A DNA stretch of 64,000 nucleotides, taken from assembly GCF_022458985.1 (NCBI RefSeq), contig NC_061777.1, positions 13,729,668 to 13,793,667 of the forward strand, given 5' to 3'. Positions 7,686-64,000 of this stretch are shown in pieces. The position numbers and the translations under genes were made by a program. This DNA is from Mugil cephalus (lineage: Eukaryota > Chordata > Actinopteri > Mugiliformes > Mugilidae). How positions within the stretch are numbered: the stretch's first letter is position 1; each line of letters opens with the position of its first letter. Under the pieces are notes generated by a model, which was given only the letters and a program-made list of their open reading frames with translations, was not told where the DNA came from and made no database searches.

Positions 7686-9230
7686 TGCCCCTGGTCGAGG
7701 TGGAGGACCGGTGCTGTGCTTCCCTGAAGGGCATCGCTCAACTCCGCTGCCAGCTATGGGGAAGTTCACCGCAGCCTCCAGCTGTGCAGTCCACCAGCCT
7801 CACTGTCCCCTTCACTGCCCTCGATCTGCTGCCTCAGAGGTCCAAGCCAACCAAAGGTAAAGACAACAAGAGGTGTCATCAACTCAGTGACATATGTTAC
7901 AGAGGACTGAAGACATGCCGGTGCAAACGAACGAGATAACTTTATTTTCAGTATTAAGTCACTTATCTAGTAAAATCTATAACATTTTTCCTCACTGTTT
8001 TTCTGTATAATAGTCTGACTAATGGTAAACTCAGTGACTTTATGGACTTGATGGTCTTTTCCAGTTTTTCACCTTAACTCTTGCTGATGAGAAGTGCTGT
8101 ATTATCATCTCCTCAGTGTTGACACCGTCAAATATGATCTGATTGCAGAGATGGTGCTGGAGGCCAAAGCGGCGCTGCAGCAGGCTCTGGAGATGAAGAA
8201 ACTTGGGAAGAGGGAGAAAGCTCACAAGCTGCTGGTGCATGCACTTAGTATGAACCCGGAGTTTGTGGATGCCCTGACGGAGCTGGGGACCATTCTGGAG
8301 GAGGAGAAGGATGTCGTCCAGGCCGACCACCTCTACACCAAGGCCCTGGCCCTCTCCCCGTGTAACGAGAGGGCTCTGGTCAGCCGAGACCGAACCCTCC
8401 CGTTGGTTGAAGAGATTGACCAGCGTTACTTTAGCATCATAGACAGTAAAGTGCGCCAACTTATGTCTATTCCCAAAGGCAATTCTGCACTCCGCCGGGT
8501 TATGGAGGAAACCTACTACCACCACATCTACCACACGGTGGCCATTGAAGGCAGCACACTCACTCTGTCTGAAATTCGTCACATCATTGAGACGCGCTAC
8601 GCCGTCCCAGGGAAGAGCCTTCAGGAGCAGAACGAGGCTATCGGTGTGGACGCAGCCATGAAGTACATCAACACCACACTGTTGTCCAGATCAGGAGCCA
8701 TCACCGTCAGTGACATCCTGGAGATTCACAGACGTGTGCTGGGCTACGTGGACCCCGTGGAGGGAGGGAGGCTGCGCACCAGCCAGGTGTTCGTGGGCCA
8801 CCACATCCCACCTCACCCTCAGGACCTGCAGAGACACATGCAGGAGCTGGTTCAGTGGCTCAACTCTGACGAGGCCCTGCAGCTGCACCCTGTGGAGTAC
8901 GCCGCTCTCGCCCACTATAAACTGGTGTACGTGCATCCGTTCGTGGACGGCAACGGGCGCACATCACGGCTGCTCATGAACCTCGTGCTCATGCAAGCCC
9001 GATACCCACCGATTACTATTCGAAAAGAACAAAGGGCAGAATATTATGCAGCTCTAGACACAGCCAATGAGGGTGATGTACGGCCCTTCATTCGATTTAT
9101 TGCCAAATGTACAGAAATAACATTGGACACTTTGTTAATTTCTACAACAGAGCACGCTGTGGGGCTGCCAGGAGCCGGCCAGGACCAGGCCTGTCCCGAC
9201 TGCAAACAGACCATCATAGGCCACAACTGA
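7586..9230 (+). CDS. ficd: Protein adenylyltransferase FICD (HYPE)
   Basis: FICD is an ER-membrane Fic enzyme that AMPylates and de-AMPylates the chaperone BiP (HSPA5), tuning its activity to the load of unfolded protein. Coding exons are 7586-7856 and 8149-9230, joined in phase 1, giving 450 aa (human 458). Residues 16-36 form one membrane segment near the N-terminus, as in a type II protein. TPR-like helices lie at about 92-165. The inhibitory helix holds TVAIEG with Glu224 (human Glu234), and the Fic motif HPFVDGNGR is at 353-361 with catalytic His353, so the active site is intact. The start at 7586 was chosen because it begins just before the membrane segment, as in the family; the ATG at 7560 is out of frame. 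The acceptor at 8149 has a weak pyrimidine tract, but the stronger-looking one near 8116 would lead to a stop. The next gene, SART3, converges on it. Confidence 0.97.
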
Positions 9231-21118: not shown

Positions 21119-22486
21119 TCACCCCCCAGATCCCACATCGAGCGGAGCCACTCTCTGCTGGCGCACGAGTATCTTTTTCAGTACGAGCAGCACTGCCAGC
21201 ATTAGGAGAGCTACCAACACGCACAACACGGCGAGCAGAGAGACGATCGCTGCAGAGTCCTGCCGAGTGAAAGGCCGCGTGTTGGGAGTAACCATGACGG
21301 CTTCTCTGTTTGTGGACGGCACGGATCCTCCAGCGGAGGTTGCGTTACTCTGAGGGTACCGAACTGTGACGTTGTCTCTGCACCCCTGCTCCTCCTCCGG
21401 GCGGGAAGCCGTAGTTTTTAAATGCGACGTGCTGAGAGGTGGAGTCTTGTTCAGGAACAGACACTCCTCATAGGTGAGAGTCTCTAAAGAGTAGGGCAAG
21501 AGACGAGTTCTGGGGAAGTCTTGTTGAATGTCTTCAGGAAAGAGTCCAGCAGAGGTTTCTTTAGATGCTTTCTGCAACATTTCTACCCGGTCCCTCTTAG
21601 AGGTTGGCCTCGTCGTCTCCAGGTCAGAGCTGAGCTGTGTCCTGTCTACTGGCTTCAGGAGACGAGGACAGATTGCCATGACGGAGAGGTTCATAAGCAG
21701 CCGGTGAGCGAGATGCACAGGCTCCGCGCACACGAGGTCTGTGGCCATCTTCAGCCTGCCACTCAGCAGCCAGCGGTAAAGATACAGAATGTCGCACTCG
21801 CACGCCCACAGGTTGTTGTTGAGGTCCACAGATCTGAGACTGGGCAGTTTGTCAAAGGCGCTGTCTGGGACCGAGCGCAGGCAGTTGCTGTTGATGTTCA
21901 GGACCTGCAGGTTGACGAGGGAGGACAGAGAGGCCAGGTCCAGGGCGGCGATGCAGTTTTCTGAGAGGTCTAAGTGAGTCAGCGACGGGGGGAGGTTTGA
22001 GGGGAGGCTCGTCAGCTCATTGCCCTTCAGCGTCAGGACCCGCAGCTTGCCGAGACCCCGCAGCGCCCCGGGCTGGATGGCGCGGATGCGGTTGTCCTCC
22101 AGGTCCAGGCGGGTCAGGTTTCCCAGCTGCCTCAGGGCGCCGGCGGTGATGTAAGTGATGCGGTTCTCCTGCAGCTGCAGGGACTCCAGGCTCGGCGGCA
22201 GGCCGCGGGGGAAGCGGGTCAGCAGGTTGTGGCCGAGGCTGAGCTCCTGGAGGCCGGAGAACGGAGAGAGCAGGTGGTCCACGTCGCAGAGCTGGTTCCT
22301 GGCCACGGACAGCGCTGAGGTGCTGAGCGGGACCGAGCGCGGGAGAGACCTCAGGCCCAGCGACTCGCACAGAACCAGGAACCCCGGGTGAGGGCAGCAG
22401 CAGCCCCGAGGACAGGGAGCCATCACCAGGGAGGCTAGAGGGCAGATGCAGAGAACCAGTAGGACGGCACATCTGCAGCAACGCAT
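21119..22486 (-). CDS. Leucine-rich-repeat type I membrane protein, unnamed
   Basis: I do not recognise the gene. The 455-aa frame lies in one exon and starts with ATG; an acceptor (CTCCTCGCAG) lies six bases upstream, so there is a spliced 5' UTR. Residues 1-22 form a signal peptide. A cysteine-rich LRR N-cap (about 25-40: CPRGCCCPHPG, then C40) leads into about seven LRRs (56-225, e.g. LTRLDLEDNRI). An LRR C-cap follows (about 226-273, WACECD with cysteines 229, 231, 253 and 273). Residues 280-410 form a Ser/Thr-rich stalk with N-glycosylation sites (NVT, NAT). One membrane helix spans 411-436, and the tail is short (19 aa). The alternating SLRP-like spacing and C-cap somewhat recall oligodendrocyte-myelin glycoprotein, but that protein is GPI-anchored. 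A cell-surface binding or adhesion role is inference. In human the neighbourhood has SELPLG, not an LRR gene. Confidence 0.88.
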   Translation of the reverse strand: MRCCRCAVLLVLCICPLASLVMAPCPRGCCCPHPGFLVLCESLGLRSLPRSVPLSTSALSVARNQLCDVDHLLSPFSGLQELSLGHNLLTRFPRGLPPSLESLQLQENRITYITAGALRQLGNLTRLDLEDNRIRAIQPGALRGLGKLRVLTLKGNELTSLPSNLPPSLTHLDLSENCIAALDLASLSSLVNLQVLNINSNCLRSVPDSAFDKLPSLRSVDLNNNLWACECDILYLYRWLLSGRLKMATDLVCAEPVHLAHRLLMNLSVMAICPRLLKPVDRTQLSSDLETTRPTSKRDRVEMLQKASKETSAGLFPEDIQQDFPRTRLLPYSLETLTYEECLFLNKTPPLSTSHLKTTASRPEEEQGCRDNVTVRYPQSNATSAGGSVPSTNREAVMVTPNTRPFTRQDSAAIVSLLAVLCVLVALLMLAVLLVLKKILVRQQRVAPLDVGSGG

Positions 22487-34735: not shown

Positions 34736-49500
<14,765 letters not shown>

Positions 49501-58769: not shown

Positions 58770-58973
58770 CTTCTGAGAGGAGAATTAAAGTATTCCCGAA
58801 AGCCGAATGATATAACACAACCCAGACGAGTATCCCCAGTGATTCCTCCCTGTCTCTGCACCGGAGCCGCTCTGAGCTCTCTACCCTCCACCGCACAGGC
58901 CCCGCCCCCTCCCCCTGGCTTGGGCCGCTCTGTTTGGACGAGCTGTTTATGACGGACGTGGCCACCAGCCAAT
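58770..58973 (-). promoter_or_regulatory. CORO1C GC-rich promoter and non-coding first exon
   Basis: On the minus strand a donor (CAGAAG then GTAGGT) ends an exon at 58770 and pairs with the acceptor before 49472. Upstream are a Sp1-type GC box (58901-58916, GGGGGCGGGG on the minus strand) and an inverted CCAAT box (58969-58973). There is no TATA box, so this looks like a CpG-type housekeeping promoter for standard CORO1C. Transcription probably starts between 58850 and 58900. The frame through this exon is open and in phase with the CORO1C ATG. Confidence 0.65.
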
Positions 58974-59578
58974 CAGAGCGAGGTATTTGAGAGCGGAGCC
59001 AAGAGGCCACGCCCTCTTCTTCAGGTTCCCAGTTACAGAAATTTACCATAGACTGTGTTTTCCTTCCTGGGTTTTTTTTTATAGCGTCTTATAATCTCCT
59101 GTGGTTATTGTGATGGTCTCATTGTCTGATTACGTGTATTACAGTCATATTATTTAGAAGAGCATCATTTCATATTTTGTGAATTTTGGATGACAAATGG
59201 AGCTTGTTAATTCATCTGATAGCTTTAGGAGCATCTTAACAAGCCAGAGGGATCCATAATGTGGCATATAAATCAGGGTGATGAGACAAATAATTACATT
59301 TCATCGCTTTGTGTGCATGCCCTATTGTGTTTGAGTGGGCGTATGATGGATATAAAATATAGGGATATCTGCCCAAAAATGCAGTGTGATTCTAACTCCA
59401 AAATGACTCAGCTTCTTAGAAAGGCTACTCCTATGGCCCATGGTAATAAACTGCATTACTGTTTGTGATAGGCAATGAAATGATAGCGCATGCCCTTTGT
59501 AATATTACAGCTTTGTGATATTAAAAATGTATTTGAGTAATGTTTAAGAACACAATGTACCCCAAGTGCCACGCACAC

Positions 59579-60073: not shown

Positions 60074-61973
60074 CTTTTCTCATTGATGGCTGCCTGCTGA
60101 GTGCCTTGTCTGGTGATTTCTGAGCAGAGTCGAACGCCGCCTTCATCTGGGCCACCTTCACAGTGTGGGCCTGCTCGTCAGCCTTCACTTCGGCCGGCTT
60201 CGGGCGCTCCTGGTGCTGCAGCTTCTCATGCAGCTGAATTGTCTCCTTTATGAGATCTGAGACTGGCCTAGGTTTGGGAGAGCCCTGGGATTTGTCTCTG
60301 CGTGTGACACCGTCGTCCCTCTCTTTGCCACTTTCTTTATCAGTTTGCTCTGGTGTTGTTTTTTCTGAGTGAGCTGTCGAATGAAGACCCTGCGTCGGGC
60401 TGGCTGAGACCTGGTGGCCTTCCTCTGAGATTACCGTTCCACCTTTAGCCAAAGCGGAGCCAGCATCCACAGCTGGTGCAGAAGTGTCCTCAAAAGATTG
60501 TTTTTCTGTCTTTCCCCCCGCTGACTGACAATCTCCCCTCTGGGACACAGATGCATGAATATTGCTCTCGGTGTCACTCTTTATCTGCAGAAGTGCTTTT
60601 GCAGCAGTCGTGTCTGTCTTCTCAGCAGTTAGAAAATGACCCAAGTCTGTGATTTGCCCATCACTTCCTGAAGGTGGGGGATCCTCACAGGTCACACCAC
60701 TCACTTCACGTGACACTTTTTCATGTGGAACAGCCTCATTGACCGAAGCGTCTGCCGAGCGGGTGATCTCAGCTCTTGAATAATGAGATGTTGTGAGCGC
60801 GCTCTCACACATAATGTCTCCTGATTGAGAGTCACTGTCAGCAGTGACTCTCACGTCCAGGTCTTCACTGTGGCAGTCTGTTGTTGCAAGGTTTGCTTTG
60901 GGTGGTGTGTATTTTGAATCTTCGTCATGAGCAGATATCAGTGGTGGTGCATTGTCAGGGATCCTCTTTGCCTCCATCTCCACAGGAGCATCTGTGGTGT
61001 CAGTGTCAACCTCTTTTATTTGAGAGAGAGATGCGGTGGCTTCCTTTCTGTTTCTCCTCAGCAGCTTCTCCAAAATAGAGCTGGGCTCGGGGGATAAGAT
61101 GGAATCGGATGCTGAATCCGAGGGCATCACTGACTCCTTTTGGTCACCTGTGCGCTCTGCTTTTGAAGAACAGTGGTCATTGAAAACTGCTGTTGCCACA
61201 CATGCCGGTGTTTCCAATAAAGACTCTTTCTGCAGACTGTTTTTCGAAGGAGGCTGGGATTGAGCTGGAGGCGGTTCCTTCCTCTGACTCAAGCGGCCCA
61301 CTGTTCCTGCACCGAGTTTAATATCCTTAATATCCTCATTCCCAACTTCACCCATCATCATGGTTTCATTCACAAGCAGCAACTCCCTTCCTGTGTGAGC
61401 GCCACATCTGTTGAGCTCCATCATAACAGAACCCCGTCCAGAGTTGTGGAAGACGGTTGCATCCTCTGAGTTTTCATCGTGCTGGAAGCTTTCCTCAGGC
61501 TCATACTCCATCTTGGTCTTTGAAGGTGCGAGGAGCTGCTTTCCAACCTTCCTTTCCCCTGGCTTGATTTGACTGAAAAGCTTGGGTGCTCTTGCACTTT
61601 CCTCACTTCCAGAACTGCTCTCGTCCGTGTCATGGGGAACCAGTGGTGCAGTCCTGCCTCCTCCTCCTCCTTCCTTTCTCGCGGCCCCTCCTTGTCTCAC
61701 CTCCCTTGCAGCGAAAGGACTCCCCTGCAAAATTATGTGGTTCTCACTAGAAGGTGTTGAATCCCGGTCGCGGCTCTCGTCTAGATCCAGAGAGTCTGGC
61801 TCCGTTGGCTTTCCTCCGCCGTTACCAGCTTCCTCCTCACATATGATTTTTCCCTCCATGACATCACCTCCATGGTTTTCCACACCACCAGAGTCCTGGC
61901 ACGTCGCCGGCTCCTCAGATCCTTCACCGGGGACCTGCTCTTCCCCTTCCACTTTGTCCAGGTTCTGCCCCAT
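60074..61973 (-). CDS. Large acidic coding exon, probably a CORO1C N-terminal extension
   Basis: One exon (61981-60074) has an acceptor CTCTCCACAG, an ATG at 61973 and a donor (AAAAG then GTAAGG). It codes for 633 residues and ends in phase 1. The product is rich in Ser, Glu, Asp, Thr and Lys, with no globular domain, and is probably disordered. It starts MGQNLDK (Gly2 could be myristoylated, though position 6 is not Ser/Thr). Near the end is an amphipathic helix, SDLIKETIQLHEKLQ (about 572-586), followed by KVAQMKAAFDSAQKSPDKAL. I do not recognise the protein. Joined to the next known acceptor on this strand (49472) it continues in frame through Asp into MRRVVRQ of coronin-1C, giving about 1107 aa. 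If unspliced at the donor, it ends eight codons on. It could instead belong to another gene whose later exons I missed; none is apparent between 60074 and 58970. Confidence 0.65.
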
Positions 61974-61981
61974 GCTGTGGT

Positions 61982-63791
61982 CTGTGGAGAGGGACACGGC
62001 GTTAACCTTACAACACAAAAACAAATCCTCCCAAACAATGTCACATGTCTGAAATTCCAACCCAGAAAGTGTTTTCTTTTGCCTGCGGACCAAACTGATC
62101 TCTGTTTTACTTGAGATTCTCTTATTTTGAGCATCTTCATGAATGTACTCTGTTTAAAAAAAAAAAAAAAAAAAAAAAAGATAGAATATGTGAAAAGGCG
62201 ATTCATGTCACAGTCTATGGGTTTAGTCTGAGACCATATAGCATGTTATAAACAATCCACAGTCACACATAAGTCATTTTCATGCCAGTGGTAAACTGAG
62301 TAACTTATGACTTGCTCTAATACACTTGGGTTGTTCATGCAGTGTTTACACCAGCTCAACATTTGTTTACGTGTCAAAACACAAGGAAACTATATGGATT
62401 ATTCCAGCCTCATCCTCAAACTTGATCAGTGTCCCGAGTCTAATTAATTAACCCCCTTCTTGTTAATATTATAATAATAATGTGTATATTATAATCGCAT
62501 CTCCTCTTCCATATTTAATCCTGCACTAGGGTCGCGGGAGTAACACAGAGACAAACAACCATTCACACTCACACCTAGGGTCAATTTAGGGTCACCAATA
62601 AGCCTAATAAGGTGGTGGGAGGAAACCGGAGTGTATATTATAATACTCTTCATTTCAAAAGTCAGCTGTTTTTTTTTTTTCTCATTATTGTCAATTGTGC
62701 TTTTCCTGATTTCTTTTCATATAAACAAACTGTCTGAAAGTGCTCCAGTCAGGCCTCTCAGTTCCCACATGTGTCAGGTTAACATGACGTTTGCATTTCA
62801 AAAACCTTGTGTTTTTTGAAATGTTCTCTTAGATTAAGTTTGGACATATTTTCGACTCTATTGAGCTTCTCAGAGGAACGTTATCCTTCGCTGCTGAACA
62901 GTGATGGACACTTTTATTGTGTTCTTGTAGATTTACCACCCAGAAAGTGTAACATCGTCTCACCAGTACCAGTAAGTGGAGGTGGAATGAGTTGCGGAAC
63001 AAAAGGCATCATCTAGATGATCATTCTGCAGAGACAAACCTCTCCGTGACATTGTCTAATTGTTTAGTGAGTTTTCAGCCACTAAACTGCAGCAGTAAGC
63101 AGAGAAAATGGAGAGGCACAATGGACAATGATCTGGACCATGAATCTGTTTCCTGTCTGAGGCCTCACTCCCCATCTGTGTGACAACATATGACTGCCTC
63201 TTGTCTTATCATCTGACAGGCCAGACAGACACACACATGGCGAAAGGAGCTAATGTTACCGTGGTGGCGTAGCTGCGCGGAGACGCTGCGATAACGACGG
63301 GGAGAAACACACATGAAAGACGGAAAGATAACGTGTGAGGACATCGGTAAAACACCATCTGTCTTTTGTTTCGCGTCATGTGGCCTCAGCAGGTTGAAGC
63401 TGGTGTCGGAGTTCAGAGGAATTTGCATTCATTGATCATCCTCCACCTACTCCATCAGCCAGTGTGGGGAACCCCTTCCCCTGAGGCCGTCCACTCCTGC
63501 TAACAACCGGTCTATTATCCTGTCTCATCCCTCCTGAATGCCCAGAGCCGATCACTTGATCACCATGTGCTCTGCAGCCCCAACGTACTCAGACATGCAA
63601 AAAACACAATCCAAGAACTCCTCACAAGCCAAAGTTTCACTACGTAGAAAACACGCAGTTCACCTATCCTATCAGCTCTGATAAAACAACCAACACAACA
63701 AATTGCTGCAAGCCTGACTGATGACAACCTAACACTCCCACAGTGTGGTGGATAAAACATTGATCCGCTATATGTTGCGGCTGACACTTAC
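61982..63791 (-). other. Intron between the two upstream exons
   Basis: No coding exon is supported. It holds an A run of about 24 bases (62156-62179, T in the transcript) and a retroelement-like fragment (62528-62632). Confidence 0.5.
62528..62632 (+). repeat. Fragment of a common fish repeat
   Basis: GGGTCGCGGG, ACAACCATTCACACTCACAC, CAATTTAGGGTCACCAATAA and GTGGGAGGAAACCGGAGT occur in the order typical of a repeat very frequent in teleosts. Internal parts are deleted. Confidence 0.7.
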
Positions 63792-63885
63792 CAGTAAGAC
63801 GCTGTAGCCGGTAACCAGTAAGTCGACCGCTCTCGCTCGGTACTGACAAGAGTGCTCTTTGTTGGTTGTTTGGTGATGATCAGTC
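63792..63885 (-). other. Probable non-coding first exon of the upstream transcript
   Basis: On the minus strand a strong donor (TACTG then GTAAGT) ends an exon at 63792. Its intron would end at the acceptor before 61981. The start at about 63885 is set from the TATA box 30 bp upstream. Confidence 0.5.
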
Positions 63886-63913
63886 CTCCCTCAAAACGCA
63901 CAAGCAATGGGAG

Positions 63914-63920
63914 CCTTATA
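63914..63920 (-). promoter_or_regulatory. TATA box of the upstream promoter
   Basis: TATAAGG on the minus strand lies about 30 bp before the proposed first exon. An E-box (CATGTG, 63928-63933) lies just upstream. A TATA-type promoter contrasts with the GC-rich one near 58900 and suggests tissue-restricted use. Confidence 0.4.
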
Positions 63921-64000
63921 TTACATTCATGTGATGTCACAGCACATTACACTAACGAAGTCAGGGGAGACTTGTAGCGACTGCTATCCTGAGTAACCGC

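Follow-up and report, generated by a model that had tools for sequence, protein, structure and literature searches.

A giant coding exon as a probable alternative 5' end of coronin-1C in Mugil cephalus, with a counterpart in a second gene copy

The window (the whole stretch of 64,000 nucleotides analysed here, G000:C8:13729668-13793667) carries a coronin-1C gene on its minus strand, and a giant coding exon lies on the same strand about 10.6 kb upstream of the first coronin-1C coding exon. The gene is laid out as follows (positions without a contig name are those of the window):

49276..49472, minus strand: first shared coronin-1C exon (exon 2), AT followed by ATG AGA CGA..., with DUF1899 and the coronin start
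34736..39969, minus strand: remaining coronin-1C exons (39969-39847, 38292-38163, 38055-37874, 36749-36630, 36336-36232, 36134-35989, 35865-35808, 35696-35454 and 34855-34736)
58770..59080, minus strand: ordinary coronin-1C promoter and non-coding exon 1 (upstream limit approximate)
60074..61981, minus strand: giant coding exon (633 codons plus 1 nt, first ATG at 61973, phase-1 donor)

From exon 2 onward the predicted gene is ordinary coronin-1C. The closest PDB sequence to exon 2 is Coronin-1C (7sty_A, E 9e-39), the exon matches DUF1899 (E 6e-32), and of the nine tblastn rows obtained with an approximate coronin probe, eight correspond to coronin exons and one (E 0.69) is taken as chance. The giant exon and exon 2 flank the ordinary promoter region, which is GC-rich and promoter-like by eye, and the donor of its non-coding exon (58770) ranks 25 of 4138 (splice signals were scored throughout with a simple matrix of approximate frequencies, and ranks were taken over one whole strand of the window). 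Elsewhere in the window there are a FICD-like ORF with a Fic domain (E 9.2e-26) and TPR repeats at 8094-9230 (+) and, between this Fic-domain gene and coronin-1C, a single 455-aa ORF of leucine-rich repeats (LRR_8, E 1e-29) at 21119-22486 (-); no Rfam family matched within the window.

The initial annotation described a 1.9-kb coding exon ending in phase 1, and this is borne out: 633 sense codons are open, followed by one leftover G at 60074 and the donor GTAAGG. The ATG at 61973 (minus strand; context ACAGCATGG, with A at -3 and G at +4) has a strong Kozak sequence, the protein opens with ATGGGGCAG at this position, and an in-frame TAA is found 183 nt upstream. The stop-to-stop frame over the exon is 702 aa, or 682 aa counted from a TTG, and in the latter form none of the other 26 window ORFs of at least 120 aa (27 in total) exceeds it; for 632 open codons a base-composition model gives P ~7e-14 (at a single position, before correction for the positions searched). 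Codon usage, scored on a training set of 897 window codons, failed to separate the frames (0.029 bits/codon in the giant-exon frame vs 0.032 in the +1 frame), so that the argument for coding is based on the open frame, on its signals and on comparison with a second copy on contig C19. At the sequence level, the giant exon is confirmed as a real observation.

The splice signals around the exon are strong: on the minus strand, donor 60074 ranks 9 of 4138 GTs, acceptor 61981 ranks 37 of 4273 AGs, and acceptor 49472 of coronin exon 2 ranks 11 of 4273. As exon 2 starts with AT before its ATG, the leftover G would complete GAT, and the in-frame read-through via Asp into coronin that had been proposed from the window alone is recovered here and repeated in the C19 copy. 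Among 11 phase-fitting candidates for the downstream exon, coronin exon 2 came out on top, narrowly when a codon term was included (14.7 vs 13.5) and clearly when it was omitted (16.0 vs 8.6). The joined protein would read ...SMRKDMRRVV... across the junction and have 1107 aa, as estimated previously, if the exon-9 donor at 35454 is used; six donors are compatible at the end of exon 9 (1086-1109 aa), three of them GT, with 35454 scoring best, and three non-GT and unscored. Phase fit alone is weak evidence, because its odds are one in three, it would be inherited by both copies, and the ATG of a coro6-like gene is also preceded by two bases.

Two parts of the predicted protein recur in the second copy:

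61953..61973, minus strand: N-terminus MGQNLDK (C19 counterpart MGQKLEK)
60075..60269, minus strand: conserved C-terminal module (residues 569-633; helices predicted at about 571-586 and 597-618)

In searches of the whole genome (634.8 Mb, 24 contigs), the 633-aa query hit, apart from its own locus, a single further place, C19:11696135-11696374, with 45% identity over residues 549-632 (E 0.0014) inside an open frame of 838 aa. The last 71 residues as query (the module) found the C19 place at E 2.6e-5, and the C19 segment in turn found the window at E 4.5e-5 (three more places at E 2.3-8.0 were treated as chance); in both reciprocal module searches, the window and C19 were the only places in the genome with E <1. 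The C19 giant exon measures 2.37 kb with 791 aa open and is located 5.3 kb upstream of a second coronin-1C, whose exons follow downstream of the open frame and whose first coding exon starts with AT before ATGCTGCGGC. Its donor, AAGAAAG/GTAGGT, leaves one G after 791 codons, i.e., phase 1 as in the window, and with phase-1 donors and AT before the ATG in both copies, either gene would continue via Asp into its coronin frame (on C19, from 11696378 to 11701662). In both genes, phase and splice signals are compatible with the predicted join. For the C19 copy, coronin exon 2 was second among six phase-fitting candidates (the first overlaps the region read as ordinary non-coding exon 1), and acceptors within 60 nt before the ATG scored poorly (best 0.18).

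After the initial Met, four of the six N-terminal residues are identical between the copies (chance of at least 4/6 ~0.0003), and the module is 46-48% identical over ~70 aa. In 67 aligned codons of the module, differences at first, second and third positions number 23, 22 and 47, and 20 of the 31 identical residues are encoded by different codons; this third-position excess, together with the changed codons at identical residues, points to constraint on the module at the protein level (pS 0.905, which is saturated; dN 0.44). Whole-tail searches limited the match to the last 81-84 residues (two further weak places found with the C19 whole tail, E 0.40 and 6.0, were taken as chance), and the middle parts of the two tails align at 28% identity with gaps, which is unconvincing. 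The C19 tail also includes, at L013:7446-8000 (+), a stretch of 185 aa, including PPPPVPKKPKNPF, which by eye appears less disordered and for which the window copy has no counterpart; apart from its own place, a genome search with it gave a single match, at E 4.9. A long GATA-type tetranucleotide repeat occupies L013:8870-9025 in the C19 intron.

The two sequences show the open frame, its signals and the phase, and an arrangement that the duplicate gene shares; because the C19 copy has kept it, the extension in the window is probably real and used. The in-frame extension reading of the initial annotation is strengthened by this independent copy, a C19 coronin-1C whose giant upstream exon agrees with that of the window in N-terminus, C-terminal module and donor phase. 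The frame could otherwise belong to a stand-alone gene, in which the terminal exon continues beyond the donor to a stop nine codons further in frame (60045) and is polyadenylated at the single AATAAA 141 nt after this stop (59904, within the intron), giving a disordered protein of 642 aa. We regard this as very unlikely, since donor 60074 ranks in the top ten of its strand and, past the donor, the frames of the two copies (42 residues on C19 vs 9 in the window) look unrelated by eye, whereas conservation holds for the protein before the donor, and the copies agree in donor phase. It is slightly harder still to credit that the giant exon is used mainly with other partners or as a 5' region without a fusion protein, e.g., by splicing from an internal donor at 61701 (score 6.1, phase 0) onto exon 2, where a stop would follow at once; the protein-level conservation up to the last codons before donor 60074 would then remain unexplained. 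Very probably, given the structure of both genes, the region is an alternative 5' end of coronin-1C encoding a long isoform by means of the giant exon.

Upstream of the window, on the same strand as coronin-1C, we found the last exon of a slingshot-type gene (a 581-aa ORF ending in a stop) and, just before it, an exon with the phosphatase signature HCKMGVSRS; from this signature and the tail, we take the gene to be slingshot (SSH1). Slingshot tails are long and disordered, and slingshot is a neighbour on the same strand, both of which would suit the giant exon being a long C-terminal tail of that gene. Such an origin is extremely improbable: the slingshot gene has its own last exon and stop upstream of the window with the signature exon directly before, and the giant exon comes after that stop, with its own ATG following an in-frame stop. 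The same phosphatase signature and DNA 69% identical to part of the slingshot last exon were identified on C19, and the order slingshot gene, giant exon, coronin-1C is common to both copies. The two loci would stem from duplication of a whole block, the simplest candidate event being the teleost genome duplication, and on the best reading of the sequences the long-isoform arrangement either predates the coronin-1C duplication or is of the same age. A slingshot-type phosphatase gene also lies upstream of a coro6-like gene (C15:12530068-12539599), and for this reason the linkage of slingshot and coronin may predate the coronin-1C duplication. In the 20 kb ending at the starts of the coro6-like (C15) and coro1a-like (C20) genes, neither an MGQxL start nor the module motif was found (the scan covered forward frames of these two genes, a diverged copy could escape it, coro2-like genes were left out, and the names coro6 and coro1a reflect a reading of the protein starts).

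Candidate signals of an alternative promoter are present:

63914..63920, minus strand: TATAAGG, candidate TATA box of an alternative promoter (consensus only)
63792..63890, minus strand: candidate non-coding first exon, donor CTG/GTAAGT, no ATG by eye (5' end placed ~30 nt below the TATA box)

The donor at 63792 ranks 14 of 4138 GTs on the minus strand; TATA box and first exon together make a candidate promoter composed of consensus signals only. DNA comparison of the two copies did not find a matching promoter on C19, and in the intron that precedes the giant exon they share a single element, a dispersed repeat (window 62533-62574 is part of it, and it also occurs in a C19 intron), the 24-nt core of which has 321 exact copies in the genome vs 0 for the reversed control. 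Use in muscle is neither supported nor excluded by motif counts around the two candidate promoter regions: the 1.6 kb around the window candidate contain no CArG, CAGCTG, CACCTG or MCAT motif and one MEF2-like motif, and an equally long C19 stretch, picked by eye, contains no CArG or CAGCTG and one each of CACCTG, MCAT and MEF2-like. The sequence TGACATCA occurs at 63932-63939, just above the TATA box, once more ~1 kb past the window end (64920 on the window scale), and at C19:11691032, upstream of the C19 giant exon; shuffling gives an expectation of 0.075 for the window region, and the C19 region was chosen post hoc, after the site was known.

The 633-residue tail had been called acidic and disordered, and its composition agrees: 112 acidic vs 74 basic residues, 19.3% order-promoting residues, and a charge-hydropathy value of 0.400 that falls on the disordered side of the boundary (0.435). 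One conserved-looking amphipathic helix had also been suggested; a conserved C-terminal part does exist, and its helices number two rather than one in an AlphaFold2 model of the last 93 residues of the window tail (two-sequence input; mean pLDDT 66.9, pTM 0.24), at model residues 31-46 (mean 91 for 31-40) and 57-78 (about 70), which weakly suggests a two-helix module. Its sequence motif can be written VS[DE][LI]IKET...VKVxQ[MI]KxxFD. No Pfam family exceeded its curated cut-off in the tail (e.g., Sec10_N, E 0.014, reached 16 of the 27.4 bits required). The PDB search gave one match with the window tail (E 1.8), two with the C19 tail (E about 2) and none with the last 92 residues of the window tail. 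Among 6, 79 and 211 pattern matches in viral and prokaryotic contigs, no relative was found at E up to 1e-3, as expected. A WH2-like reading of LFSQIKPGERKVGK was dropped, with no Pfam family matching the segment at E up to 10. N-myristoylation, suggested by the MGQ start, follows the PROSITE pattern G-{EDRKHPFYW}-x-x-[STAGCN]-{P}; it was discarded because position 6 is acidic by eye in either copy (D or E), so that the pattern is not matched.

Coronin-1C controls branched actin; the short human protein has 474 residues, and the extension of the human long variants is short. We propose that a second promoter downstream of slingshot (SSH1) would start an mRNA with the giant coding exon, which would be joined by splicing to the shared exon 2, with the ordinary promoter and its non-coding exon 1 skipped. 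The product would be a coronin-1C of ~1107 aa with a mostly disordered, acidic N-terminal tail of 633 residues, both ends of which (the MGQxLxK N-terminus and the two-helix module directly before the coronin start) selection would maintain, and the ordinary promoter would supply the short form. Transcription of the long form, its tissue and its function are inferred. As a tentative and rather doubtful working idea, the tail may serve as a targeting or spacing arm, and the helical module, placed by the basic coronin N-terminus, may tune or add contacts with actin or Arp2/3 in particular tissues.

A survey of 723 coronin proteins (PMC3203266) describes two further transcripts of human coronin-1C in which an extra exon upstream lengthens the N-terminus (first reported by Xavier et al. 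2009, cited there); it gives these variants as seemingly confined to modern primates and the normal start as shared by all other coronins. The mammalian precedent invoked initially therefore holds for human upstream-exon N-terminal isoforms, and its mammal-wide scope gives way, on the same source, to modern primates, seemingly alone. The predicted fish form resembles these CRN2 long isoforms in that the same gene would use an upstream exon and an alternative transcription start before the normal coronin start (PMC3203266); unlike the human form, taken here from its description, the fish tails have 633 and 791 residues. Class-1 short coronins are given as proteins of 450-650 aa with an N-terminal coronin domain (PMC3203266), and the short form from the ordinary promoter, coronin-1C from exon 2 onward, would fit this class; in contrast, the predicted long form has 1107 aa and its coronin domain is C-terminal to a long tail. 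As in tandem coronins, class-4/villidin and the Filobasidiella fusions, a coronin domain would be joined to extra protein, but in those multidomain coronins, as described in the survey, the coronin domain leads and the others follow or intervene, whereas here an unrecognised disordered region would precede it through an alternative promoter (PMC3203266). Among the literature matches listed, no title or abstract start mentioned a long form of fish coronin-1C; automated fish annotation may include such a model.

It is conceivable, at somewhat less than even chance, that the long form represents an old, separately regulated coronin class of bony fishes (perhaps of vertebrates) that predates the teleost genome duplication and was kept in both copies, with a disordered arm before the coronin and, likewise before it, a new actin-regulating module of two helices, and of which the primate isoforms are perhaps reduced remains. 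If the long isoform is made, fish have a form of coronin-1C more than twice as long, work on the short form misses an isoform, and the survey's statement on a common normal coronin start (PMC3203266) needs revision. The giant exon is a testable unit, as it can be deleted without touching ordinary coronin-1C.
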